DNA from: Muscardinus avellanarius
Lineage: Eukaryota > Chordata > Mammalia > Rodentia > Gliridae
Assembly (NCBI GenBank): GCA_963383645.1
Contig: OY726560.1
Location: 26,537,800 to 26,601,799, forward strand
Direction: 5' to 3'
DNA: 64,000 bases
Positions 1,428 to 63,417 of the stretch are shown here, piece after piece. The notes under the pieces are model-generated. The model searched no databases, was not told the origin of the DNA, and was given only the letters and a program-made list of their open reading frames with translations. How positions within the stretch are numbered: the first letter of the stretch is position 1; each line of letters begins with the position of its first letter. A program made the position numbers and the translations under genes.

Positions 1428-2385
1428 AATCAAAAAATGGGCAAGGGAATTAAATATAAACTTCATGAAAGAAGAAATCCAAATGGCCAATAAATGCATG
1501 GAAAATGTTCAACATTGTTGACAATCAGAGAGATGCAAATCAAAACTACCCTGAGATTTCACCTAACTTCAACTAGAAAGGCAATCTTTCAAAATACAAA
1601 CAACAAATGCTGGTGAGGATGTGGAGAAGTGGGAACCCTAAAACATTGTTGGTGGGATTGTAAATTAGTACAACCACTATGGAAAATAGTATGGAGAATC
1701 CTCAGAAAAATGGGACCTAATTTACCATTTGACTCAGCAATACCACTTCTGGGTATCTATCCAAAAGAAAGCAAACCAAACTACCAAACTATATCTATGT
1801 TCATATCTTTATATCTCTATATAAACTATATCTATGTTCATAGCTGCACAATTCACCATTGCCAAACTATGGGACCAGTCAAGGTGCCCATCAACAGATG
1901 AATGGATTACAAAACTATGGGATATGTACACAATGGTATTTTACTCAGCCATTAAAAAAAAGTTATATCATTTTCAGGGAAATGGATGGAACTGGAGGAC
2001 ATTATGCTAAGCGAGGTTAGTCAGTCATAAAAAGTAAGAAAACGGATGCTTTCACTAATGTTTGAAAGCTAAGGTGAAATGGTAATAGGAGGAACTCCAG
2101 GTGAAAAAGGAGATCCTATACAGGAGCAAACGAGGCAACCTAACTGTGGGAATGGGAGGGGAGAGGAGAGAAACTCTCTAAAACACATGATGTACATAAA
2201 AAAAAAAACTATTGATGTCAATCACTAAGCCAAGCCTGGAGGGAGGGAAGGGATGGGAATGGGATGGGGAGGGGGAAGGATTTAATGGGGTGATGTGTGC
2301 ATGTATACTTTCATGAGATTTTTATCCCATTCAGATGTATGAAGTCAATGCACCAATAAAAAAAAAGAAAAGATAAAAAGGAAAA
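1428..2385 (+). mobile_element. L1 fragment: ORF2 C-terminal end plus 3'UTR
   Basis: The segment reads like the end of L1 ORF2. A degenerate frame around 1629-1770 carries the [10 protein letters not shown] and [20 protein letters not shown] blocks typical of the ORF2 C-terminus. After a G-rich 3'UTR (about 2150-2290) it ends in the tail motif 'caatgcaccaataaaa' followed by A-rich sequence. The same tail motif closes the other L1-type elements in this window, so this is the resident L1 family. Frameshifts and stops make it non-functional, and it is 5'-truncated, as most L1 copies are. Confidence 0.85.
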
Positions 2386-42107: not shown

Positions 42108-43158
42108 TTTTTTTTAATTTTTTATTGGTGCACTGTATTCATACATCATAGTGGGATACAAACTTTTGTAGACATACATGCACACATCGCCCAGTTAGCC
42201 CCCACCCGATCCCCACCCCATTCTCTCCCCATCCCTCCCTCCCATGCTTGGCTTAGTGGTTGACATCTAGTATTATAGCAATTTATCCAAAATTAAAAAT
42301 GATAATCTCACATAACAGTTTCATTTGTCTGATACCAAGCTTTTGATGACTTAAAGATAACATTTCAATATTTCTTTTTACTTTCTTACCAGAGAATATT
42401 TTTTTTCTATTTTTTTAGGTGAAACTATCATATATTTATATATTTATTTTTCAGAAAAAAACTCTATCCTAATATGGAATATGGACTCTAGATACCCAAA
42501 ACTATCTTTAAAAAGAACAAAGCTAGAAGATATATATTTTCTGATTTCAAACCATATAAAGCTACAATAATTGAAACAGTGTAGTACTATTCTAAAGGCA
42601 GATATATAAACCATTGGAGTTAATTAAAAGCCTAGAGCTAAATTCTTCCCTATATTGTCAAGTTATTTTTGACAAGGTTTCCACGAACATTTGGTGGTAG
42701 AAATACTAATCTTTTAACTAAATATTGTTGAAAAATAATAATTACATGGAAAAGAATAAAGTTGGACCCTTACCTAATCCCATATACAAATATTAACTCA
42801 AAATAGATAAAAGACCTAAATATAAATCTTAAGACTATAAACTTTTAGGAGAAAATCTGGGTCATAAAACCTCACAACACTGAAATTGGCAGTGATTTCT
42901 TGGATATGATTTCAATGGCACAGGCAACAGAAGAGTATACAAACTCCCTAAAAAAAAATATTGTATATCCAAAGACAATGTAAACAGAGTTAACAGTTAC
43001 TAATAGAATGGGATAAAATATTGCCAAATGCTATATCTGAAGGTATATTAATATTCCAACTAGAAATCCTAAAAATTAACAACAATAAAGGCAAACAATA
43101 CCATTTAGAGATAGGTAAAAGACTAACATAAGTAATGAATCTCCACAGATAACCAATC

Positions 43159-44121: not shown

Positions 44122-44869
44122 TATGACTTCACTTAAGGTGTTCTGGATCTCGAGTCAGTAGTATCTCAGACCCCACTACTCCTTTACTGGGTTGTATCAC
44201 AGAGTCTCTGACCCAGAGAGTCGATAGAGGCTGCTTTAGACTGTGGGGGGTGCCAGGTTGCAAGTTCTCCTATGGTGTGATATCTCTGCCACCACCCCTC
44301 CCCCACTGGGTCAAGTTCCAGGGAGTACAGTACTGGGATTTCTCCTCTGTGGCCCGCAATTTGACTCACTGTTCTTGAGTACGCAGATGTAGCTGTACTG
44401 GATTCGGTGAATTCTCTGCTGCTGCCGCTGGTGGCAATATGGCGCCGCTGCTACGCCCTCGGCTCTGAAGCTGGTGTATTTCTTCTTGGTTTTGATTTCC
44501 ACTCTGAATCCCTGCGGCGTGTGCTGAGCTCAGCCACTGGGAGCTTTAGATTTTACCTGTGGCGAGAAATACCGCCTGGCTGTTCCGCAGCAGCTCACCT
44601 CGGCTTGCTGTTGCCGTCTGGTGAATTTGCCGCTGCCGCCAGCAGTATGGCGTTGCTGCCGCGTCCTCGGGCGTGAGGCTGGTTATCTCCTCTGTGGCTC
44701 TGAGCTCTGTTCTCAGTCCGCTTTCTCTCTGGAGCCTGGGGATTTTTTTGTTTCTCTGGTGTTGGGGTTTTCTGGCTATGAAAGGTGCTGATTTTGTGGT
44801 AATGGAGATTGGTTGTTAGCAGGGCTCTTAAGCCCCGCTTTTCTCGGTCGCCATCTTCCCGGAAGTCCC
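44122..44869 (-). promoter_or_regulatory. L1-type 5'UTR with probable internal promoter
   Basis: 748 bp, CpG-rich and much richer in GC than its flanks. It begins with 'gggacttccgggaagatggc' at the transcript start, a position where L1 elements commonly carry a YY1 site that fixes initiation. GC-rich triplet runs lie near 44,410-44,460 and 44,590-44,660. Promoter activity is inferred. Confidence 0.65.
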
Positions 44870-48479: not shown

Positions 48480-48541
48480 GACTTTTTTTTTTCTGGTTTT
48501 GGGGGCTGAACCCAAAGGAATCCTACCTCCATAGACTTTTT
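48480..48541 (-). repeat. SINE, right-half piece (split by the 2.4-kb insertion)
   Basis: Poly-T then 'ctggttttgggggctgaacc' and 'cctacctccatagac'. The remainder of the same SINE resumes at 50,910-51,062. Confidence 0.85.
48528..48541. repeat. Target-site duplication, left copy (VNTR composite)
   Basis: 'tccatagacttttt', matched exactly at 50,910-50,923. Confidence 0.9.
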
Positions 48542-48890
48542 GTAAAATTTTATTTTTAATGGTGCATTGTAATCATACATCACATTGGAATACAAGACTT
48601 GAGAGGATATACAAGCACACATCATCCAATTAACCCTCATCCATTCCCCATCCTATTCCCTCCCCCTCCCTCGATCCCATGCTTGTTTGGTGATTAACTT
48701 GATATATTTGTTTATGTACATCCTGAGTTTTAAAGAGATTCCATCCTCCCCTATCCCATACCCTCTGATTGGTTACCTTAATTGCTTCGCTATAGGGCCC
48801 TTTCTATAACCTGACCTCTTCCTGTTACCCCTTTCCTCCTAGTTATTGCTGATTAGGGGAAGCATCTGGATTTTATTTTCTGCGATATTT
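48542..48890 (-). repeat. L1 3'UTR module of the composite
   Basis: 'aatggtgcattgtaatcata' to 'ccctccccctccctcgatcc' is colinear with the antisense L1 3' ends at 42,120-42,270 and 59,500-59,870. Confidence 0.85.
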
Positions 48891-48932
48891 CTCTGTGCAT
48901 GCCACATTGCAAGTACCAATCCCACTCTTGAT

Positions 48933-49775
48933 GGCCCTAGTAGTGGCCTGGCTACCCGGTGGACTGATCCGGACCTCGCTGGCTCAAGCAGAAGCCTTAC
49001 CTCATGGGAGGCCCCTTTTCTGGCCTCGCTGGCCCCCACACCAGCCTAACCCCTTGGGTGGCTCCGATCCTAGCCTCGGTGGCCCCAGCACTGGCCTTAC
49101 CTCACGGCAGGCTCTGATTCCAACCTTGCTGACCCCGGCACCAGCCTAACCCTTTGGCAGGCTCCATCCCAGGCTTGGAGGCCTCAGCACCGGCCTTGCC
49201 TCATGGTAGGCTCCTCTCCCAGACTTGCTGGCCCCAGCACCGGCCTAACCCCTCGGCAGGCTCCGATTCTGGCTGTGGAGGCCCCGGCACCGGCCTTGCC
49301 TCACAGCAGGCTCTGATCCCAGCCTCGCTGGCCCTAGCACCGGCCTACCCTCTCAGAAGGGTCTGATCCCGGCCTCGGAGACCTTAGTAGTGGCCGTGCC
49401 TCAAAGTAGGCTCCAGTCCCGGCCTTGCTGGCTCCGGCACTGGCCTTACCCCTTGGCAGGTTCCAATCCAGGCCTCAAGGGCCCCAGTACTGGCCTTGCC
49501 TCATGGCAGACTCCAATCCCGGCCTCGCTGGCCCCAGCACCAGCCTAACCCCTTGGCAGGCTCTGATCCCAGTCTCAGAGGCCCCAGCACCGGCCTTACC
49601 TCATGGCAGGCTCTGATCCCAGCCTTGCTGGCCCTGGCACTGGCCTAACCCTTTGGCAGGCTCCAATCCCTGTCTTGGAGGCTCCAGCACAGGCCTTGCC
49701 TCATGGCAGGCTCCAATCCCAGCTTTGCTTTCCCCTTCGCTGGCCTCATCCCTCAGCAGGCTCCAATCCGAGCAC
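48933..49775. repeat. 50-bp tandem repeat array (about 17 units)
   Basis: Unit anchor 'ggccccagcaccggcct' recurs every 50 bp (for example 49,530, 49,580 and 49,630). Units alternate between a 'cttgcctcatggcaggctc' and a 'ctaaccccttggcaggctc' type, giving a 100-bp higher-order period. The period is not a multiple of 3, so the array is not a protein repeat. Confidence 0.95.
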
Positions 49776-49793
49776 CCTCTTTGCCCAGCAGGT

Positions 49794-50330
49794 TATCCCA
49801 CATTCCCGAGGGTGTGTGGTGGTAGCATTCTGCCTCTGGGGTTATTACTTCAAAAGTTCCAGGTGTAATACATCAGATCTCTGCCTCCCCTGAGTACTGG
49901 CCACTGCCATTGCCACTATCTCCACCATTTCAAATCTTTCCCAAGCTCTTTTTCCACTCTGAATGTTGTCCAGTGTTCCTAAGCATGTGCGATGGTAGCA
50001 GTCGACGTTTGGTGTAATTTCTCCAAAAAATAAGGTTGGTATGATCAGATTTCTGCCTCTCCTGAATACAAGTCTCCACTGCCATCGCGGCGACCGCTTC
50101 CAACACCGCCTTCCTCCTAGGTCTCCCCTAAACTCTCTCCTTACAGGTGATGTCCAGGATTCTTAAGAATGTAGAGAAGAAGCAGTCCTTCTTCGCGGGG
50201 AATTTTTCCAAAAGTTCCAGTTCATTTGGATACGTTTTGTCTGCATCTTCAGTATCCTGGCATCCTCTGCGGCCTTCTTGGCCCCTCTCTGATATTTTTC
50301 TTTTCTTTTTTCTTTATCTTTTCCTTTAAA
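49794..50330. repeat. Three tandem units of about 175-185 bp
   Basis: Units begin near 49,794, 49,967 and 50,151, each with a 'tgtccag.gttc.taag'-like start, a 'tggtagca' or 'aagcag' block, then 'ttttccaaaagttcc' or 'acttcaaaagttcc'. The first two share 'cagat.tctgcctc.cctga'. They are more diverged than the flanking VNTRs and are reminiscent of L1 5'UTR monomers. Confidence 0.7.
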
Positions 50331-50394
50331 AAAAAATAATAAGAGAAGACAGTATGTGTAGTTTGAAGAGGTTGTGGGATCAGGCACTCAATAG

Positions 50395-50890
50395 CACTGC
50401 GGCCCGGGCCTGGTTCTTCCAGGAGTCCTGCGTGCCCCAGGCGACTGCCGCCCGGGACTCAGGGTCCTGTGGCCTGGGCCTCGGTTCTTCCAGGGGTCTG
50501 GCGTGTCCCGCGCAACCCCCGCGCAGGGCCCAGGGCCTTGCGACCCAGGCCCGGGTTTCTCCGGGGGTCTGGCATGCTCCACATGACTCCGCCCGGGGTC
50601 CAGAGTCCTGTGACCCAGGCCTAGGCTCTTCTGGGGGTCCGGCGTGCCCCGCCTGACCCTGTCCAGGGCCCAGGGCCTTGTGACCCAGGCCCACGTTTCT
50701 CCTTGGGTCTGGCGTGCTCTACGCGACCCCACCTGGGGCCCAGGGTCCTGCAACCCGAGCCCTGGTTTCTCAGGGGGTCCAGCGTGCCCCGCCTGATCCC
50801 TGCCTGGGGCCCAGGGCCTTGCAACCCGGGCCAGGTTTCCCCGGGTTTCTGGCATGCTCTGTACGACTCCGCCCAGGGCCCAGACTCCTG
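50395..50890. repeat. 70-bp GC-rich tandem repeat array (about 7 units)
   Basis: 'cagggcccagggccttgcga' or 'cagggtcctgtgacccaggc' recurs about every 70 bp, with alternating unit types ('ccttg' versus 'tcctg'). Very CpG-rich. Confidence 0.93.
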
Positions 50891-50909
50891 TGATCCGGGC
50901 CCCAGCTCT

Positions 50910-51062
50910 TCCATAGACTTTTTTTTTTTTTAATTTTGAAAGAGGGTCTTACTAGGTTAATAAGAGTCTTGCTAAATTTCCAAGGCTGAAGTTGAACCTG
51001 TAATCCTCCTATCTCAGCCTTCTGAGTATTGAATTTACAGGAATGTCCCACCAAGCTCAGCA
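50910..51062 (-). repeat. SINE, left-half piece (split SINE) including right TSD copy
   Basis: TSD 50,910-50,923, then poly-T, 'aattttgaaagagggtctta' to 'gtcccaccaagctcagc'. It completes the SINE begun at 48,480. Confidence 0.88.
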
Positions 51063-51073
51063 CCTATAAAACC

Positions 51074-51599: not shown

Positions 51600-51926
51600 T
51601 GTCGGACGCCCTGTAATGCACGACACTCGAGACGATCTTCTTCAAGCTCTTTATTGCCCCAAGCTGTTACATCTTCTTTCCCGCCAAGCCCTTCGCGCCC
51701 CGCTTATAAGCACCCATCAGCCAATCATGACGGCGATCACGCGGACATCGCCTGATTCTCTAACCACCCATTGGCCGGATGCCGATGGCATGACCTGTTC
51801 CCGTGCACACCACGCTCTAGTCGTTGGACTGCGCATGACTTGTTTACAACTTTGGTGCCTCTCCGTACTTCCGTTCAGCGCCATCTTAGAAAAGTCCGCC
51901 AGCAAACAAGGGTGGGGCTCGCCACA
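51600..51926 (-). repeat. 3' LTR (327 bp)
   Basis: Minus-strand termini TG...CA. Same 327 bases as the 5' LTR as far as I can see. Poly-A signal AATAAA at 51,650-51,655 (minus), TATA-like 'cttataag' at 51,703-51,710, CCAAT motifs in both orientations upstream. Confidence 0.96.
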
Positions 51927-51928
51927 GC

Positions 51929-51944
51929 TCCCCCTTTTTGTTTT
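51929..51944 (-). other. Polypurine tract
   Basis: Minus strand 'aaaacaaaaaggggga', directly upstream of the 3' LTR. It serves as primer for plus-strand DNA synthesis in retroviruses. Confidence 0.88.
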
Positions 51945-52180
51945 AAAAGCGCAACAGGCAAGAGTAGAGGTCTGATCTCTGATGCTGGAAGCTAGGACAT
52001 TGTACTGTCTCCCATCCAGGTGTGTTTCCCTTGATGAGAGCCAGACCCGTCCGATACCCTTTTTCTCAGAGGCGGGATTTGGGGTATCTACCCGCGTGCA
52101 ATCAGACATGCTCTTCTTGAGATCGCTATCTGCAGGCCGCGTATCTCAAGTGCAATGCTTTGCTTGTCATCCTGAGCGCA

Positions 52181-52983
52181 TTATGCCTTTTCCATTACTG
52201 CCAGCCAGACGGTGGGCGACTGACCCGCCTCAACGGCCACAAAGGCCTGGGCTAGAAGTATCTGATCTTTGGCTCTTTGTGTAAATAGCCGTCGCAGACA
52301 ACAGAGACATAGAATGCACAGGAAGACTAAACAAAATCCCAGAGCCCCCAACCCAGTCCATTCCTTAAGATGGAATGCCGCTCTTTGTATCCAGGAGGCC
52401 AACGTCTGGGCGACTTCAGGATCGATTCGGGTGGTGTTGACCTTGACGATCTCCGCATGTAGCTGTTCAGTAAGCATATCAAACTCCTTACTCCAATTTC
52501 CTGTAAGATGAGAAGACAACTCTCGAGATAGATTAGCAGTAGTAGCATTCCAGCACAAAACTCCGCATAGTAGCCATATATCAAAGGGATTACTAAAGAT
52601 AGATTGAGTTGGATTTTGATTAGTGAAATTATAACCTCTGAAGGTGGAATTAACAAAGGTACCAATGCGGGGAGAAAAGGTAAAATGGGGGGAGGCCCAT
52701 TGCAAAAGGCGGGCCTGGCAGCCTGTCCAAGGGGGCGCTAAAGACTGCCTCGACAACGTGGAGCCCATCGTGGCTGAGCCCTTGGGGTATCAGAAGAATT
52801 TAAGAACTGTACAGGCCACAAACCCTGTATCCAATATGCAGAAGCATTAGCAATACCATCGCTAGAAACATTAGGTGTCATAAACCATCCTGCAGCCTGA
52901 GGGGACAAAAATATACACGGCCTGGAATCATCAGGGGATTGAAGCGTAAAACATAAAGCTCCAGGAAGCTGTATATTATAAGA
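52181..52983 (-). pseudogene. env remnant (partial SU and TM, deleted and frame-split)
   Basis: Only about 0.8 kb lies where an envelope gene of roughly 2 kb would be expected. Right after the pol stop, 52,983-52,738 encodes an 81-codon surface-subunit-like piece with several N-glycosylation sequons (NVSS, NASA, NSSD), ending at a stop. A different frame (52,768-52,181, 195 codons) carries a transmembrane-subunit-like tail. It has sequons (NSTF, NFTN, NATT, NLSR, NWSK, NTTR), a hydrophobic anchor (LGALGFCLVFLCILCLCCLR) and a cytoplasmic tail of about 38 residues. No signal peptide, furin site, fusion peptide or CX6CC motif is visible. A large internal deletion plus a frame change is the simplest reading, so no functional envelope is expected. 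Confidence 0.8.
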
Positions 52984-55590
52984 TTACTCCATGCTGGTTG
53001 TAGGCCGATTGTCATAATGAGGAGGTATATCCATGTCCCTGATGCCATCTTGTGGAATCCGACGTGTCAGCCTTTCCGGTACCCAGAGTGGATCTGTTCC
53101 GTCCTGTGGAAACACACAGACAGAGCCTCGGGCCCATGTGAGCACTGGATCAGGGCCCTTCCACTGACCTGTGAGTACATCCTTCCATTTTGCCATCTCC
53201 TGAGGAATCGCAGTGGATCCAAAGTGCCGGTCTGCAGCCGATTTACCATTGACATCCAGATTTAAAAAATTTAGAGTAAAAAGTGCCACTGATAATCGCT
53301 GTTTTGGTTTGAGATCCGCCCCTATTCCCCCTCTTTGTTTTATTAAACATTCTTTCAATGTGCGATGTGCACGTTCAACAACGCCTTGGCCCTGAGGATT
53401 ATAAGGGAGACCATGTTTAAGCAGTATTCCCATCTGCTTGCAGAAAGATGTAAATTTTTGTGAGGTGTAAGCCGGGCCGTTATCGGTTTTAATCTCTTTA
53501 GGCGCATTCCATGCTGCCCAAGCCTCAAGGCAATGTGCAATAACATCATAGGCCCTTTCTCCTGCATGAGCGGAAGCATATATAATCCCAGAGGCCGTAT
53601 TAATAGACACATGCACATACTTAACAGTGCCAAACTCAGGTATGTGAGTCACATCCATCTGCCATAAATGTAATGGAAGTAGGCCTCGCGGGCAAACACC
53701 AACAACCGGGGAAGGTATAAACGGTGCACAAGCACCGCAAGTCTTAACAATTTCACGGGCTTGGCTACGAGGGATAGCAAATTTAAGCTGCAAAGTTTTA
53801 GCATTTACATGGAATTGGTGATGAAACTCCTTTGCCCGTTGTAGCGGTGTAAGAAAGAAGATCATAGGCAACTTAGTGAGTTTATCCACAATATCATTAC
53901 CATGGGTAACCGGTCCAGGCAGACCCGTATGTGCCCTAACATGTTGTATATAAAAGGGATTATTTCTTTTCCAAATTAAGTGTTGAATGTCCGAGGCCAG
54001 ACAATGGATTGGGGTCTGCGTAGATATTTGTCCCGCGCATTCCAAACTTTTAACTAATTCTACAGCATACGAGGAATCTGACAGCAAATTAAAAGAAAAT
54101 GTATATGTTTTAAATACCTCTAAAATAATATGTAATTCAACTAGCTGAGGTGACCTATGCTCATATTGTATGACTACGGGGTCTTGGCCTTCAATTACAA
54201 AGGCTCCTAACCCTGTTTTGGATCCGTCTGTAAATATATTAGGAGCATGGGGTATCGGCTTATCTTTGGTTACGATGGGGAAGATTATAGGATGCTTTTC
54301 CACAAAATGCAATATAGGGTCTGAAGGCAAATGATTATCTATCTCCCCTACAAATGTGTAGCGTAATATGGCCCACTCATCTATGGTCGTCTGTAATGTT
54401 AATATTTGATGTTTACTATAAGGAATGATAAGCTTATCGGGGTTTTGGCCAAAGTGTTGAATGCATTGCTGGATAGCCATAGTAGCAACCTTAGCTACCA
54501 TAGAGGGGTAATGTTCTATAATCCTTTGAGGGGAAATTTTAGGATGAATCCACAACAGAGGTCCTTGCTGCCACAAAACTCCAGTAGGTTGTAACTTAGT
54601 AGCTAATATACATGCCCAAATGGGATCCTCTGGTGATACACGTTTAAGGGAGGCCTTAGTCAAAGCCTGTTCAATTAATGTTAAGGCACTCCGAGCTTCA
54701 GGTGTCAGTGTTCGCGGGGAAGTCAATGAAGAATCCCCCATCAGGATCGTGTATAAGGGCTTCAACATATGATTGGGAATTCTTAAAGCAGGTCGAACCC
54801 AATTGATATCCCCTAGTAATTTTTGAAAATCATTCAATGTATGCAATTGGTCTGTGCGTATAATAACCTTTTGGGGCCTAATAAAACGGGGATAAAGAAC
54901 ATTTCCTAAAAATTGAATGACAGTGCCCTTTTGTATCTTTTCAGATGCTATTATCAGATTCCTACTCTCTAGAGTCTTGACAAGCATGCAAAATGCCTCT
55001 TCTAGTTGTTTTTCCTCTCCACAGGCTATCAAAATATCATCCATATAATGGCAGCACCGTACGCACGGAAATTCCTCTCTAACAGGTTGCAAAGCAACAT
55101 CCACATACAATTGACATAGAGTAGGGCTGTTGGCCATACCCTGAGGAAGCACTTTCCACTCATATCTCTGATCAATTTGTTCGTGATTCACAGAGGGCAC
55201 TGTAAAGGCAAAGCGTGGGGTATCCTGAACATGAAGAGGTATAGAGAAGAAGCAATCTTTTATATCTACTACTATAACAGGCCAAAATTGTGGGATAGCC
55301 GAAAGAAGAGGAAGACCATGTTGAACAGGTCCCATACTTTGCATTTGATCATTAATAGCTCGAAGATCATGCAATAATCTCCATTTTCCTGATTTCTTTT
55401 TTATTACAAATATGGGCGTGTTCCAGGGGGACGTGGAGGGCTGGATATGGCCTAATGCTAACTGTTCTTTGACTAACTCCTGAGCTGCCTCTACTTTTTG
55501 CCGGGGGAGGGGCCACTGGGAAACCCATATTGGATCCCCCGTTTTCCAAGTAATGGGAATTGTCTTCCCAGTGGCTACTTCCCAAAACCC
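52984..55590 (-). CDS. pol: pol: reverse transcriptase, RNase H, integrase (open)
   Basis: The frame is open from 55,602 to the stop at 52,984 (about 872 codons). It would be entered by a -1 shift at 55,584-55,590, so it has no start codon of its own. In order: RT with KKKSGKWRLLHDLRA, catalytic Asp in VVDIKDCFFSI, LPQGMANSP and YMDD at 55,047-55,036. RNase H has FTDGSKTGLGAF, a Glu in LVELHIILEV, LSDSSYAVE and GNDIVD. Integrase has an HHCC-type N-terminus ending in CGAC, and D, D-35-E catalytic residues in WQMDVTH, KTDNGPAY and GVVERAHRT. No internal stop or frameshift is seen and all catalytic residues are present. The length fits betaretroviral pol. Whether it is expressed cannot be judged from sequence. 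Confidence 0.95.
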   Translation of the reverse strand, partial: GFWEVATGKTIPITWKTGDPIWVSQWPLPRQKVEAAQELVKEQLALGHIQPSTSPWNTPIFVIKKKSGKWRLLHDLRAINDQMQSMGPVQHGLPLLSAIPQFWPVIVVDIKDCFFSIPLHVQDTPRFAFTVPSVNHEQIDQRYEWKVLPQGMANSPTLCQLYVDVALQPVREEFPCVRCCHYMDDILIACGEEKQLEEAFCMLVKTLESRNLIIASEKIQKGTVIQFLGNVLYPRFIRPQKVIIRTDQLHTLNDFQKLLGDINWVRPALRIPNHMLKPLYTILMGDSSLTSPRTLTPEARSALTLIEQALTKASLKRVSPEDPIWACILATKLQPTGVLWQQGPLLWIHPKISPQRIIEHYPSMVAKVATMAIQQCIQHFGQNPDKLIIPYSKHQILTLQTTIDEWAILRYTFVGEIDNHLPSDPILHFVEKHPIIFPIVTKDKPIPHAPNIFTDGSKTGLGAFVIEGQDPVVIQYEHRSPQLVELHIILEVFKTYTFSFNLLSDSSYAVELVKSLECAGQISTQTPIHCLASDIQHLIWKRNNPFYIQHVRAHTGLPGPVTHGNDIVDKLTKLPMIFFLTPLQRAKEFHHQFHVNAKTLQLKFAIPRSQAREIVKTCGACAPFIPSPVVGVCPRGLLPLHLWQMDVTHIPEFGTVKYVHVSINTASGIIYASAHAGERAYDVIAHCLEAWAAWNAPKEIKTDNGPAYTSQKFTSFCKQMGILLKHGLPYNPQGQGVVERAHRTLKECLIKQRGGIGADLKPKQRLSVALFTLNFLNLDVNGKSAADRHFGSTAIPQEMAKWKDVLTGQWKGPDPVLTWARGSVCVFPQDGTDPLWVPERLTRRIPQDGIRDMDIPPHYDNRPTTSME

Positions 55591-56528
55591 AGGCCCCGGG
55601 CATCATTTTGTCCTTCATTAGGAACGGGGCTCTTGCGCCCTTGAAGATGTTTGCCCAGCCCGTATGACGGGTGAAAGCCCTGTTTTATAAGCATTTGTTG
55701 TGCTTGGGGGGAGTAGTCATTTTGTAAATGAAAACCCATATCCGAAAGTAAATCTCGTCCCCACAAGGAGACCGGAATTTCCAACTTATATGGTGTAAAA
55801 GTGCCAGAGTGCCTTTCCTGATCCTCCCAGTGGAGAGGCCTTGCACTGACATCAGGAGTTTGGACGTATCCCAGCCCTCTAAGCTGTGTGTCAGCCCTTT
55901 TTATAGGCCAAGCAGGCGGCCAATCTTTGGAAGCTATCACACTTGTATCTGCTCCTGTATCAAGTAACCCTAGAATAGATTTTCCTTCCACTTTTAAGGT
56001 AATTAAGGGTCGCTTCCCCATATCAAACGCAAGTGATATAATGTTAGTACCAGAGGAACCAAACCCCTTTTCCCCCCGTTGATTTTGCTTAGAGGGGAAC
56101 AGAGAATGTAAACTGGGTAACACTAGTAACTGGGCTATTCTATCACCGGGAGAGATGGCCACAATTCCCCGGGGGGCAGAAATCATAACTTTTATAATCC
56201 CCTCATAATCTTGATCAATAACCCCGGGATGGGTGACGAGGCCTTTTAAGGTGGATGATGATCGTCCCAAAACCAGGCCCACGGTTTCTGGGGGTAATGG
56301 ACCAGACATATCGGTTGGCATGACTTGAATTCCCATTCGAGGGGTTAATACCAACCGGGTGGTGGCACAGAGGTCCAATCCCGCTGAACCGGGAGTGGCT
56401 CTCCTGATTCCTTGGGTTGGTGCAGATTGGGCCATGGGGGTGTCTGGTCCGTCTCCATAGCACTGTACATTTGTTGGCCCCCATACTTGTAAGGGCCCTG
56501 AGGGGAAGGGCCCCGTTTCCCGTTTTTT
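55575..56528 (-). CDS. pro: pro: dUTPase-protease with C-terminal G-patch (open)
   Basis: The frame is open from at least 56,603 to the stop at 55,575 and is entered by a -1 shift from gag at 56,522-56,528. The N-terminal half is a dUTPase: PGSAGLDLCATT, HPGVIDQDYEG, SPGDRIAQLLVLP and the C-terminal GFGSSG arm, covering all main dUTPase motifs. Next is a retropepsin aspartic protease with LLDTGADTSVI (catalytic DTG near 55,955-55,963) and a WGRDLLSDMGF block. The C-terminus has a glycine-rich G-patch (GLGKHLQG ... ARGLGFGK). dUTPase-protease fusion plus G-patch is the betaretrovirus layout. dUTPase limits uracil in viral DNA, and protease cleaves the Gag and Pol precursors. No disabling mutation is visible. 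Confidence 0.94.
   Translation of the reverse strand, partial: KKRETGPFPSGPLQVWGPTNVQCYGDGPDTPMAQSAPTQGIRRATPGSAGLDLCATTRLVLTPRMGIQVMPTDMSGPLPPETVGLVLGRSSSTLKGLVTHPGVIDQDYEGIIKVMISAPRGIVAISPGDRIAQLLVLPSLHSLFPSKQNQRGEKGFGSSGTNIISLAFDMGKRPLITLKVEGKSILGLLDTGADTSVIASKDWPPAWPIKRADTQLRGLGYVQTPDVSARPLHWEDQERHSGTFTPYKLEIPVSLWGRDLLSDMGFHLQNDYSPQAQQMLIKQGFHPSYGLGKHLQGRKSPVPNEGQNDARGLGFGK
55584..55590 (-). promoter_or_regulatory. pro-pol -1 frameshift heptamer G GGT TTT
   Basis: The heptamer fits X XXY YYZ in the pro frame, three codons before the pro stop. The downstream 'tgggaa-gacaa-ttccca' hairpin is a candidate stimulator, although its spacing of about 13 nt is long. Confidence 0.8.
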
Positions 56529-58012
56529 GGCGGTTGACGGCCCTGTTCTGGCAAAGCATGAGAAGATAAAACATTGCCATCGATATCCTTCACAGATCGA
56601 CACTCTGCGGTGGGATGCCTGCCTTTTCTGCAGCGTTTACATAAATCTGGCGGAGCTTGCTGTGGCGGGGCAGCACGTTTAGGGCAATCCCTCTTTAGGT
56701 GTCCCGCCGCCCCGCAGGAAAAACAATTGCCCAACCGGGTATTATTGTTGTTCTTTTGCCGACCAGAGGCCTGCAAGATCGCAGCGGCTAACCCTGAATT
56801 TGATAAAGGCCCACCAAGTTCTCTGCACAGTTTCATCCACACCTCTAAGCCTCTATTTTTATAGGGGTTTATGGCCTGTCTGCATTCTGAATTGCATTGT
56901 TCAAAAATAAGTTGTTTAACAAGAGGCATGGCTGCATCGACATCTCCAAATATTCATCCAGCAGCCTCTATTATTCTGGCCACAAAATCAGCAAAAGGCT
57001 CGTTAGGCCCCTGAATTATTTTGGTAAGATTGCCCGATACCTCCCCTTTATTAGGAAGCCCTTTCCAGGCTCTAATGGCTAAATTATTTATTTGTTCGTA
57101 TATCTGTTGAGGAAAACATGTTTGGTTATTTGCGAACTGTCCCTGCCCCAAGAGCATGTCTACATTCCAGGCAGGCTGCCCAGCGGCTTGATTGGCTGCC
57201 GCCTGTTCAGTTGCAAACTCGATCAAGAAAGCCTTCCAATCCAAGTACTGTCCTGGAGTCAGGGCCGCTCGGGCCAAATTTTGCCAATCTCCAGGAGTCA
57301 TGGCATATCTGTGAATACTTTCCAGGGTAGCCACAGTATACGCAGCATTTGTGCCGTATGTTCGCACTGACTCAGCAATATGTTTTACTAGTTTGTAATC
57401 TAAAGGCTCATGGTAACGAGGCCCTCCGCCCTGCGGCTGAAATACGGGAAAAGCTTGTCTAGCCATCAACACCTCCGGCTCCCTCCATACCTTTTCATGA
57501 AAGGAACGACCCCCGGTCGGTCTTAAACGCTCGGGGGCCGAAGGATTATAGGGAGGAGGAAGGGACCCCTGGGAGGAATATGTATCCACGGTCATTTTGC
57601 TGACTTCCTTTTCTATGGCAACAAGTTCCTCATCCGATTCTCCCTCCCCATCCGAGCCCTGTTCGCTAGTGGGGTGAGAGGAAATAGATCGTTCCTCTTT
57701 TAGCTGATCTAGGGCAGCTTGCCCCTCCTGTACTAATGGTTTATAGCATTTTTGTTCTAGGCACGCTCGTATGAGGCGCCACAAAGGGTAGGTTCCTCCT
57801 GATACCAGATTGTCCTTCTCTGCCCGTTCTATGTCCTTACCTAGTTTATCCCAGCTCGACAGGGTTAAATTTCCCGAAACTGCAAACCAGGGAGCTGCCT
57901 CATCTACTTGGCTTAGAAAGTTTTGAATGGTCTTGTCTCTTAGTTTTAATCCCTTTCCATTTAATAGGGCTTTTAAAGCCTTCTGTATCGGGTGTGAAGG
58001 GTTATTCCCCAT
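56345..58012 (-). pseudogene. gag: gag: matrix-capsid-nucleocapsid, one in-frame stop
   Basis: It starts at an ATG with strong Kozak context (G at -3 and +4). The first residues MGNNPS fit N-myristoylation, so Gag would be directed to the plasma membrane. In order: matrix-like N-terminus, acidic linker, a PPPY late-domain motif (57,543-57,560), capsid with a major homology region (IIQGPNEPFADFVARII), then nucleocapsid with two Cys-His boxes (CFSCGAAGHLKRDC and CKRCRKGRHPTAEC), and a Pro/Gln-rich tail. Total span is about 556 codons. A TGA at 56,954-56,956 lies in frame near the capsid C-terminus, just past the homology region, and the same frame stays open on both sides. Translation would therefore yield a truncated 352-residue product lacking nucleocapsid and unable to reach the pro frameshift site. 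Confidence 0.95.
56478..56528 (-). promoter_or_regulatory. gag-pro -1 frameshift signal: A AAA AAC plus pseudoknot
   Basis: The slippery heptamer A AAA AAC (56,522-56,528) is in register with the gag frame, and the -1 frame is the pro frame. After an 8-nt spacer, 'gggccct' (56,507-56,513) pairs with 'agggccc' (56,493-56,499). The loop CCCC (56,502-56,505) can pair with GGGG within 56,478-56,482, forming an H-type pseudoknot. Confidence 0.88.
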
Positions 58013-58214
58013 AGCGACGCTCAGGACCAGCCTGAGAATCTAGTACAACCTCCTTTTGGAGCTCCCCTTTGTCTGTACGGAGTTGGGGAAATAATATTTT
58101 TACCTTTATAATCCTCTGTTCTCCAGAGCCTCCCAAATCCCGGGAGTACTTACCAGCCGGCTGCCTTGGGAGAGCGGAAGTTCTGATCGTCTGCAAAACG
58201 AAAGCTGCTTCGAT
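58013..58214 (-). promoter_or_regulatory. 5' leader with probable major splice donor
   Basis: Between the primer site and the gag ATG. 'ggctg|gtaagtact' puts a consensus donor at 58,154/58,153, as expected for making subgenomic env RNA. Packaging signals usually lie here, but none can be pinpointed. Confidence 0.7.
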
Positions 58215-58232
58215 TCCCCGTACGGGCCACCA
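58215..58232 (-). other. Primer binding site, tRNA-Ile type
   Basis: Minus strand 'tggtggcccgtacgggga', two bases inside the 5' LTR. It is complementary to the 3' end of nuclear tRNA-Ile (AAT) as I recall it ('ccccgtacgggcca' plus CCA). The next bases (58,214-58,208) still resemble the T-loop with one extra A. Confidence 0.8.
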
Positions 58233-58234
58233 AA

Positions 58235-58561
58235 TGTCGGACGCCCTGTAATGCACGACACTCGAGACGATCTTCTTCAAGCTCTTTATTGCCCCAAGCT
58301 GTTACATCTTCTTTCCCGCCAAGCCCTTCGCGCCCCGCTTATAAGCACCCATCAGCCAATCATGACGGCGATCACGCGGACATCGCCTGATTCTCTAACC
58401 ACCCATTGGCCGGATGCCGATGGCATGACCTGTTCCCGTGCACACCACGCTCTAGTCGTTGGACTGCGCATGACTTGTTTACAACTTTGGTGCCTCTCCG
58501 TACTTCCGTTCAGCGCCATCTTAGAAAAGTCCGCCAGCAAACAAGGGTGGGGCTCGCCACA
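58235..58561 (-). repeat. 5' LTR (327 bp) with promoter and poly-A signal
   Basis: U3 on the minus strand carries 'aagatggcgctga' (YY1-like), two CCAAT motifs ('ggccaatggg', 'gattggctga') and TATA-like 'cttataag' (58,338-58,345). The AATAAA signal at 58,285-58,290 follows in R. It is short and CpG-dense, with a layout like IAP-type LTRs. Confidence 0.95.
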
Positions 58562-61112: not shown

Positions 61113-63417
61113 GAATTCACCGAATCCAGTACAGCTACATCTGTGTACTCAAGAACAGTGAGTCAAATTGCGAGCCACAGAGGAGAAATCCCAGTACTGT
61201 ACTCCCTGGGACTTGACCCAGTGGGGGAGGGGTGGTGGCAGAGATATCACACCATAGGAGAACGTGCAACCTGGCACCCCCCACAGTCTAAAGCAGCCTC
61301 TATCGACTCTCTGGGTCGGAGACTCTGTGATACAACCCAGTAAAGGAGTAGTGGGGTCTGAGATACTACTGACTCGAGATCCAGAACACCTTAAGTGAAG
61401 TCATAGTGACCCAAGGGAAGAACCCAGAGAAGGCACAAACTTCCGAAGTCATGGGAAAGAGGAATAATACTGGAGCAATGAATGCCCACAACCCCACAAC
61501 ATCAGAACCCGATAAAACAGAAAATCAGAGATTTCTAGAAGATCAAATTAGGAAAATAACTGTAGAAATAATAGAGGTGCTTCGAAAAGAACTCAGAGAG
61601 AGCCAAAAAGAGATAAAGGATGCAATTAATGAAGTAAAGGCCTCAATTCAAAGCACAAACAACCGATTAGACCACATGGAGAACAGAATCTCGCTCTTAG
61701 AAGATGATCATTCCAAAAATGGATGCATAGTTTCTAATCTAGGAAAAAATATCCGACAGCAGGAATCTGACATTGAAGAAATATGGGCCCATTATAAGAG
61801 AGCTAACCTAAGAATAATTGGAATAGAAGAGGGAAAAGAAAGTGAAACCAAAGGGATCAACAATCTCTTCAAGGAAGTAATAGCAGAAAATTTTCCAAAC
61901 ATAGAGCAAGAGGTTGATACACAGGTCCAGGAAACTTATAGAATTCCCTTTAGACAGGATCGGAGAAGAGGATCCCCATGTCACATAATTGTCAAAATGA
62001 CCAATGTGGAAGCCAAGCAGAGAATCTTAAAGGCAACAAAAACAAAGGGCCAAGTGACATTCAGAGGCAAACCAATTAGAATCGCTCTCGACTTCCCAAA
62101 CCAAGTAATGAGAGCCAGAAGGGCTTGGAGTAAAATATTCTAAACTCTGAAAGAAAACAACTTCCAGCCAAAAATTTCCTACCCAGCAAAACTTTCTATC
62201 AAATTAGATGGAGAAATAAGAAGCTTCCATGACAAACAGAAACTGAAGGAATTTTTGTCTTCAAAACCAGCGCTAGAGAAAATACTCAAAGAGATTAACT
62301 ACAAAGAAGAAATAGGTAACACACACCAGAACCAGAGAAACAAGAGTTTCCATCCAACAGTCAACTAAGATTGGTTATCTGTGGAGATTCATTACTTATG
62401 TTAGTCTTTTACCTATCTCTAAATGGTATTGTTTGCCTTTATTGTTGTTAATTTTTAGGATTTCTAGTTGGAATATTAATATACCTTCAGATATAGCATT
62501 TGGCAATATTTTATCCCATTCTATTAGTAACTGTTAACTCTGTTTACATTGTCTTTGGATATACAATATTTTTTTTTAGGGAGTTTGTATACTCTTCTGT
62601 TGCCTGTGCCATTGAAATCATATCCAAGAAATCACTGCCAATTTCAGTGTTGTGAGGTTTTATGACCCAGATTTTCTCCTAAAAGTTTATAGTCTTAAGA
62701 TTTATATTTAGGTCTTTTATCTATTTTGAGTTAATATTTGTATATGGGATTAGGTAAGGGTCCAACTTTATTCTTTTCCATGTAATTATTATTTTTCAAC
62801 AATATTTAGTTAAAAGATTAGTATTTCTACCACCAAATGTTCGTGGAAACCTTGTCAAAAATAACTTGACAATATAGGGAAGAATTTAGCTCTAGGCTTT
62901 TAATTAACTCCAATGGTTTATATATCTGCCTTTAGAATAGTACTACACTGTTTCAATTATTGTAGCTTTATATGGTTTGAAATCAGAAAATATATATCTT
63001 CTAGCTTTGTTCTTTTTAAAGATAGTTTTGGGTATCTAGAGTCCATATTCCATATTAGGATAGAGTTTTTTTCTGAAAAATAAATATATAAATATATGAT
63101 AGTTTCACCTAAAAAAATAGAAAAAAAATATTCTCTGGTAAGAAAGTAAAAAGAAATATTGAAATGTTATCTTTAAGTCATCAAAAGCTTGGTATCAGAC
63201 AAATGAAACTGTTATGTGAGATTATCATTTTTAATTTTGGATAAATTGCTATAATACTAGATGTCAACCACTAAGCCAAGCTTGGGAGGGAGGGATGGGG
63301 AGGGAATGGGGTGGGGATCGGGTGGGGGCTGACTGGGCGATGTGTGCATGTATGTCTACAAATTTTGTATCCCACTATGATGTATGAATACAGTGCACCA
63401 ATAAAAAATTAAAAAAT
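61113..63417 (+). mobile_element. Composite L1 derivative, copy B (5'-truncated)
   Basis: Same order as copy A: the last 293 bp of 5'UTR, ORF1, linker, inverted ORF2 block (about 62,420-63,130), then sense L1 3'UTR ending 'gcaccaataaaaaatt'. It is near-identical to copy A by eye over long runs, including across both inversion junctions. It starts within the 5'UTR at 'gaattcaccgaatcc', a typical 5' truncation. Its TSD and target differ from those of copy A, so the two are independent insertions and not a segmental duplication. Confidence 0.9.
61406..62368 (+). pseudogene. L1-type ORF1, one in-frame stop (copy B)
   Basis: Same 320-codon frame as copy A. It is open for 245 codons through the coiled coil and RRM core (RANLRIIGIEEGKESETKG), then has a TAA at 62,141-62,143. 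The remaining 75 codons of the C-terminal domain continue in frame to the natural stop at 62,366-62,368. The stop differs from that of copy A. In L1 the protein binds the element RNA. Here it would lack most of the C-terminal RNA-binding domain. Confidence 0.9.

Follow-up and report, generated by a model that had tools for sequence, protein, structure and literature searches.

In the 64-kb window analysed here (the whole stretch of DNA given above, at its full length), we found a composite element at positions 48542-50909, which is oriented along the minus strand (5′ end at 50909) and which is, in our judgement with little room for doubt, one copy of a large dispersed family of non-autonomous VNTR-composite non-LTR retrotransposons with the module order A70-M180-V50-L1 3′ UTR-A tail. 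We further consider it probable that the VNTR-composite design evolved independently in a rodent lineage, as a small radiation of at least two subfamilies and perhaps several thousand copies, which carry different 5′ modules and have a core of monomers and a 50-bp VNTR in common. The minus-strand orientation and the existence of a relative, apparently older, whose 5′ end is a different one are new beyond the first reading of this DNA.

Architecture of the element

Read in sense direction, the element consists of a 70-bp array, a degenerate array of approximately 175-bp units, a 50-bp array, an L1 3′ UTR portion of about 345 bp and, at the end, a short A-rich tail. The 5′ module A70 (50397-50909, minus strand) is a GC-rich array (71% G+C) of about 7.4 units of 70 bp, delimited with a script and with Tandem Repeats Finder, the latter calling 7.2 copies at 50397-50901. 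The middle module M180 (49774-50396, minus strand), recognised by a self-match of 71%, a period of 173 and its homology to subfamily B (see below), is composed of a leader of about 60 bp, which is common to subfamily B, an A-rich tract (about 50290-50335) and three degenerate monomers of about 175 bp. V50 (48886-49773, minus strand) is the central GC-rich VNTR with 50-bp units and a 100-bp higher order; Tandem Repeats Finder reported 15 copies with a 100-bp higher-order unit at 49023-49773, and the last approximately 80 bp of the module, next to the L1 homology, are decayed 50-bp units. The three tandem-repeat domains of 70, about 180 and 50 bp, proposed in an earlier note on this DNA, are all present, the “180-bp” domain being very degenerate: two of its units are 71% identical, and the best period of 173 comes with a self-identity of 38%.

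The 3′ module L3 (48542-48885, minus strand) comprises an L1 3′ UTR, AATAAA and the short A-rich tail. Over 346 columns it is 71% identical to the L1 3′ UTR found in one of the genomic copies described below (L015), and it aligned at 67-70% to three others, among them those of copy L035 and of window positions 2038-2365, with 338-346 columns for all four; to the end of a HAL1-like element it aligned at 78% over 154 columns. We take the compared sequences to be L1 3′ UTRs from their ends and from characteristic sequence features of L1, and on this reading an L1 3′ end with an A-rich tail is joined to the repeat domains, as had been proposed. The SINEs of the window had no match inside 48542-50909, and Rfam at gathering thresholds gave nothing in the window. 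Only two stop-to-stop frames of at least 110 amino acids occur in the window copy, both of them over the 70-bp array, and no ORF1 frame was seen; the longer of the two (186 amino acids) was compared with 280 candidates and matched none of them at E 0.01. A 22-base word of M180 gave 0 matches in bacterial and archaeal genomes and 0 in the viral contigs scanned, as expected for a mammalian repeat.

Target site and neighbouring elements

The element is bounded by TCCATAGACTTTTT at 50910-50923, beside its 5′ end, and at 48528-48541, past the A-rich tail, a direct repeat identical at 14 of 14 positions, to which no strand is assigned. Among 1,332 mismatched flank pairs 0.15% score as high, so that the claim of a clean target-site duplication holds. 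The insertion interrupts a SINE on the minus strand, whose parts, which we presume to be ID-like (48481-48527) and B1-like (50924-51064, outer end set by eye), were identified by aligning the joined flanks; dimers of B1 and ID are typical SINEs of the squirrel/dormouse group, and this dimer type is a sign of a rodent host. The statement that the two halves rejoin perfectly has to be narrowed: the alignment of the joined flanks to six further SINE copies in the window does run on across the junction, but 14 alignment columns are missing in the host SINE, inside the duplicated 14-mer. Since the same deletion is present in both copies of the duplication, it is older than the insertion.

Other mobile elements were observed nearby. 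Two HAL1-like elements, at 42110 to about 44870 (minus strand) and at 61113-63416 (plus strand), are 99.26% identical over 2,305 bp and carry an L1 ORF1-like frame (PF02994 at 61373-62143 in the plus-strand copy, split by a stop in the minus-strand copy) and an L1 3′ end, with no ORF2 frame of at least 110 amino acids; the plus-strand copy is shorter at its 5′ end, and for the minus-strand copy the outer 5′ boundary given here is a presumed one. This pair points to recent L1 activity in the genome. An endogenous retrovirus with gag domains (PF00607, PF02337) occupies 51600-58561, 0.7 kb from the composite element; with its two identical 327-bp LTR-like ends (51600-51926 and 58235-58561) and a possible 6-bp flanking repeat, acatgg, noted by eye, it is apparently a very young insertion.

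A dispersed family with a fixed module order

Searching the assembly which contains the window (2,497,143,478 bases) with the whole element yielded 17,113 first-look candidates, of which the best 40 were scored; all 40 match, the window's own copy (G000 C4:26586340-26588708) included, and the other 39 places, spread over many contigs, show 79-84% identity in their best stretch. These 40 distinct copies are numbered L001-L049 (L022-L030 repeat L031-L039 and were dropped) and form a non-random sample that favours full-length copies. In the fetched sequence every one of them has the order A70-M180-V50, even where A70 is reduced to about one unit (L048). An L1-type end is present in 37 of the 40, for 36 seen in the sequence and for L016 by match coordinates, and is missing in L009, L015 and L041, of which L015 runs into an unrelated L1 3′ UTR. 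The earlier note had asked for further copies with the same module order as a check of its reading, and 39 besides the window's can now be named, which supports that reading.

A second search, with the core of M180, gave 4,456 first-look candidates, and again all 40 that were scored match, here at 93% or more and with the window's own copy among them. First-look candidates are unconfirmed copies, and “thousands” should therefore be read as an estimate. From these 40 rows five further copies were picked by hand; M180 is followed by V50 in all five and preceded by A70 in three, and one element (L061) begins shortly after a SINE, where the A-tract meets the monomers. Altogether, V50 follows M180 in 45 of 45 copies examined (the 40 scored and the five found by M180), and in the copies studied the two modules abut with no coding frame between them. 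The element in the window is a copy of a dispersed non-autonomous family and moved as a unit.

Insertion marks and probable dependence on L1

For the 37 copies with an assigned 3′ end we compared the 5′ flank with the sequence after the tail, taking every other pairing of the same 37 (1,332 mismatched pairs) as the null; L009, L016 and L041 are outside this set, whereas L015 is inside it although its assigned 3′ end belongs to another L1. A flank match at the 5% level or better was found in 26 of the 37 copies, and at the 1% level in 20; the remaining 11, L015 among them, gave no significant match in this test. The matched duplications of the 26 measure 13-20 bp (median 15), so that the expectation of own target-site duplications in further copies is borne out. 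At the cut, 20 of the 26 have [T/C]AAA, as compared to 12.5% of positions taken at random from these flanks, a difference to be read with the matching step in mind, which is itself somewhat biased towards A-rich sites. In 36 of the 37 copies an AATAAA is located no more than about 30 bp from the end. Four copies (L005, L034, L036, L047) sit in near-identical A-rich SINE targets of the TTTCAAAATAAA type, a recurrent target.

These observations bear on the proposal that the structure is merely a local satellite cluster whose flanking 14-mers are alike by chance. Three tandem arrays do lie side by side, as such a cluster would have them; however, copies of the same order are found on many contigs, 26 of the 37 tested have a flanking duplication of their own, and joining the window's flanks restores a SINE. 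The dispersed same-order copies together with their own duplications refute the satellite reading, to which we attach practically no probability.

Judged from sequence, the duplications, the target sites and the 3′ end of the dispersed family are what target-primed reverse transcription by L1 leaves behind, the 5′ ends being variable. A transcription start fixed inside the 70-bp unit was looked for as well and not found: the 5′ ends do not favour any one phase of the unit (Rayleigh test, p about 0.86 for the 40 copies and 0.93 for the 26 anchored by a duplication), which leaves such a start unsupported, and a tendency towards two ends per unit is at most weak (p about 0.055 and 0.33, respectively). 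The family has very probably been copied by L1 in trans. The duplications of 13-20 bp, the [T/C]AAA sites and the L1-derived AATAAA end support the mobilisation suggested in the earlier note; that L1 would act in trans we infer from the window copy, which has only two frames of at least 110 amino acids, the longer one without homologue.

Based on these features we propose that RNA polymerase II would transcribe the element from its GC-rich 5′ region, and that the transcript would be polyadenylated through the L1-derived end; L1 proteins would then nick the target and reverse-transcribe the element RNA in trans, and the arrays would lengthen and shorten at the DNA level. A mechanism of the same kind is described for SVA and LAVA in the accessible text of PMC4432496.

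Array length, divergence and amplification

As had been suggested, repeat numbers vary between copies. A70 measures 66-675 bp (median 350, n=40) and V50 508-2,590 bp (median 1,009, n=37, the value of L015 being overstated), the longest 50-bp array, of approximately 6.4 kb by coordinates and near satellite scale, being that of the family A copy L016 (G000 C17:56193476-56201619). The non-array parts, M180 and the L1-type end, are well conserved among 36 copies (the alignment of L3 has 36 rows, L015 being left out): the non-CpG distance to the column consensus has a median of 4.4% (2.8-8.0%), the pairwise non-CpG distance a median of 8.1%, and at 42 of 1,005 non-CpG sites a minor base occurs in at least 20% of the copies. 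Assuming 2-2.5 substitutions per 1,000 sites per million years, the divergence of these best-matching copies would correspond to roughly 20 million years.

Could the copies instead be a processed pseudogene family, in other words retroposed host transcripts that by chance included repeats and extended through an L1 end? Such transcripts would bear the same L1-made insertion hallmarks, and a middle module without known source would suit a host gene. No notable coding frame was found, though, the 186-residue one remaining unmatched in the search given above, and the 4,456 first-look candidates for M180, the two subfamilies with different 5′ domains and the shared variant positions speak against this origin, which we regard as very unlikely. 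Candidate numbers, subfamilies and shared variants point to the serial amplification of source elements.

Subfamily B and the origin of the modules

A relative with another 5′ end came to light in L049 (G000 C21:10668000-10677900), where a younger composite has landed on the 5′ margin of an older one. This second composite, behind the family A copy, has neither A70 nor M180 and consists of a 310-bp domain (dom5), V50, a more diverged L1-type end and an A tail, and its L1 end is 85% identical to the window's over 321 aligned bases. An L1 3′ UTR ends 37 of the 40 family A copies as well as the single B-type copy that was read to its 3′ end. The start of dom5, GGGGAGGCAAGATGGC, resembles the starts of L1 elements. 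A search with dom5 gave 1,934 first-look candidates; 40 were scored and all match at 83-100%, L049's included. In four of the other 39, dom5 is followed by a GC-rich sequence of 40-bp repeats in every case, with 220-331 bp read in three of them; L051 has an array of 40-bp units with a higher order of 80 bp, the other three have one to about two 40-bp units, and in L063 no array was called.

One of these copies, on contig C5 (L063, L064 and L065), was followed over 1.77 kb and has the order dom5, 40-bp repeats, X, M-type monomers, X′ and V50. It contains a unit of approximately 175 bp whose end is formed by the leader (about 60 bp) and the A-tract of M180 (profile E 3e-21) and M180-type monomers (profile E 2e-21, 3e-20 and 2e-14); after the monomers come a partial unit of the 175-bp kind again, a SINE (by eye) and V50, 80% identical to the window's. 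Leader, A-tract, monomers and V50 are hence common to family A and the C5 copy, and the 5′ domain differs: the A70 array of family A occupies the place which in B is taken by dom5 together with the 40-bp repeats and the greater part of the 175-bp unit. On the basis of this one copy read at length, up to V50, and of the variant in L049, subfamily B is apparently the older of the two, and the simplest history we infer is that family A arose by 5′ replacement, in which the A70 array would have been joined into an older composite, replacing its L1-like start and 40-bp repeats.

With respect to the origin of the modules, a different account, which is compatible with the mechanism proposed above, would have the element descend from an internally deleted L1 whose 5′ UTR (M180, dom5, perhaps A70 and V50) became fused to its own 3′ UTR. 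The 3′ end is indeed that of an L1, the start of dom5 recalls L1 starts, and AAGATGGC, which stands near 44857 in the 5′ region of a HAL1-like element of the window, also occurs in M180 past the A-tract, in four (L008, L041, L043, L048) of the 36 copies where this position could be located. The consensus at the start of the first monomer reads AAGAAGGC instead, and AAGATGGC is possibly an older L1-type start motif. Against a deleted L1 stand V50, which follows M180 in all 45 copies, the 40-bp repeat sequence behind dom5 in all four copies, and the two L1 5′ regions compared (near 44857 in the window and in L041), in which nothing similar to A70, M180 or V50 appeared at the thresholds applied. 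We therefore consider such a descent for the element as a whole possible but rather unlikely, even though the most distant origin of dom5 and M180 may lie in L1; a composite assembled from separate modules and carried by L1 is the reading we retain. A YY1-type motif at the start of M180, AAGATGGC, was also considered and is a weak candidate, the motif being found in only four of the 36 copies.

Significance

If the design did evolve independently in rodents, then placing GC-rich arrays upstream of an L1-compatible end would be a recurrent way to parasitise L1. The biology of VNTR composites rests on a single group, that of the apes, which makes it hard to tell which features (a GC-rich 5′ repeat, a central VNTR, an L1-compatible tail) an element needs to become a preferred passenger of L1. 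A rodent family of independent origin, in which the 5′ modules differ and the arrays vary several-fold in length, would permit this question to be put to comparative tests and cell assays. The family also supplies GC-rich, CpG-bearing insertions with a possible regulatory role in a genome outside the primates.

Comparison with known systems

To our knowledge, no other VNTR composite is known outside primates, and the search of the open-access literature (Repbase, Dfam and most subscription papers lying outside it) found none of this kind in a rodent, in line with the statement that no rodent equivalent had been described. Of the characteristics of VNTR composites in a broad sense, the rodent element shows a fixed order of several unrelated modules with a variable array, target-site duplications at sites of the L1-endonuclease type, and no coding capacity of its own, the frames having been scanned in the window copy and the other copies judged by the adjacency of M180 and V50. 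HAL1 (half-L1) likewise is non-autonomous and has an L1 3′ end, but by definition retains ORF1, of which the rodent composite has none. The monomer arrays in the 5′ UTR of mouse-type L1 resemble it in their tandem GC-rich 5′ units and in 5′ ends that lie inside the array; their monomers, however, are of about 200 bp, whereas the units here are of 70 and 40 bp, with no ORF following in the copies read.

The closest parallels are the VNTR composites described as hominoid-specific in the portions of PMC4432496 and PMC7353768 that could be consulted. The rodent element resembles SVA in being a non-autonomous composite with a repetitive 5′ module, a central GC-rich VNTR, a distinct 3′ domain, an A tail and target-site duplications; the VNTR units, compared by length alone, are of 30-50 bp in SVA (PMC4432496, as far as its text was accessible) and of 50 bp here. 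Mobilisation by L1 in trans is demonstrated for SVA and inferred for the rodent element. The parts differ, as the earlier note had it, SVA being compared by description. According to the same accessible text of PMC4432496, the hominoid families have a 5′ region of CT-hexamer and Alu-like sequence and a GC-rich VNTR in common and differ at the 3′ end. The rodent 5′ end, in contrast, is a 70-bp array without a CT-hexamer/Alu-like region, and comparison with the window's own SINEs revealed no 7SL-type SINE inside 48542-50909; at the other end stands an L1 3′ UTR, and not the HERV-K-derived SINE-R of SVA. The host order, to judge from the B1+ID-type dimer at the target site, is probably a different one as well.

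LAVA, PVA and FVA of gibbons are, like subfamilies A and B, families with common modules that differ at one end. Yet it is the 3′ end that varies in hominoids and the 5′ domain that varies in the rodent, where the M-type monomers and V50 (C5 copy) and the V50-L3 end (L049) are shared; and LAVA carries an L1ME fragment within a 3′ domain of unique, Alu and L1ME sequence, whereas the L1 part of the rodent element is an L1 3′ UTR with AATAAA. The rodent element works like SVA, LAVA, PVA and FVA, and yet is not a member of their group.
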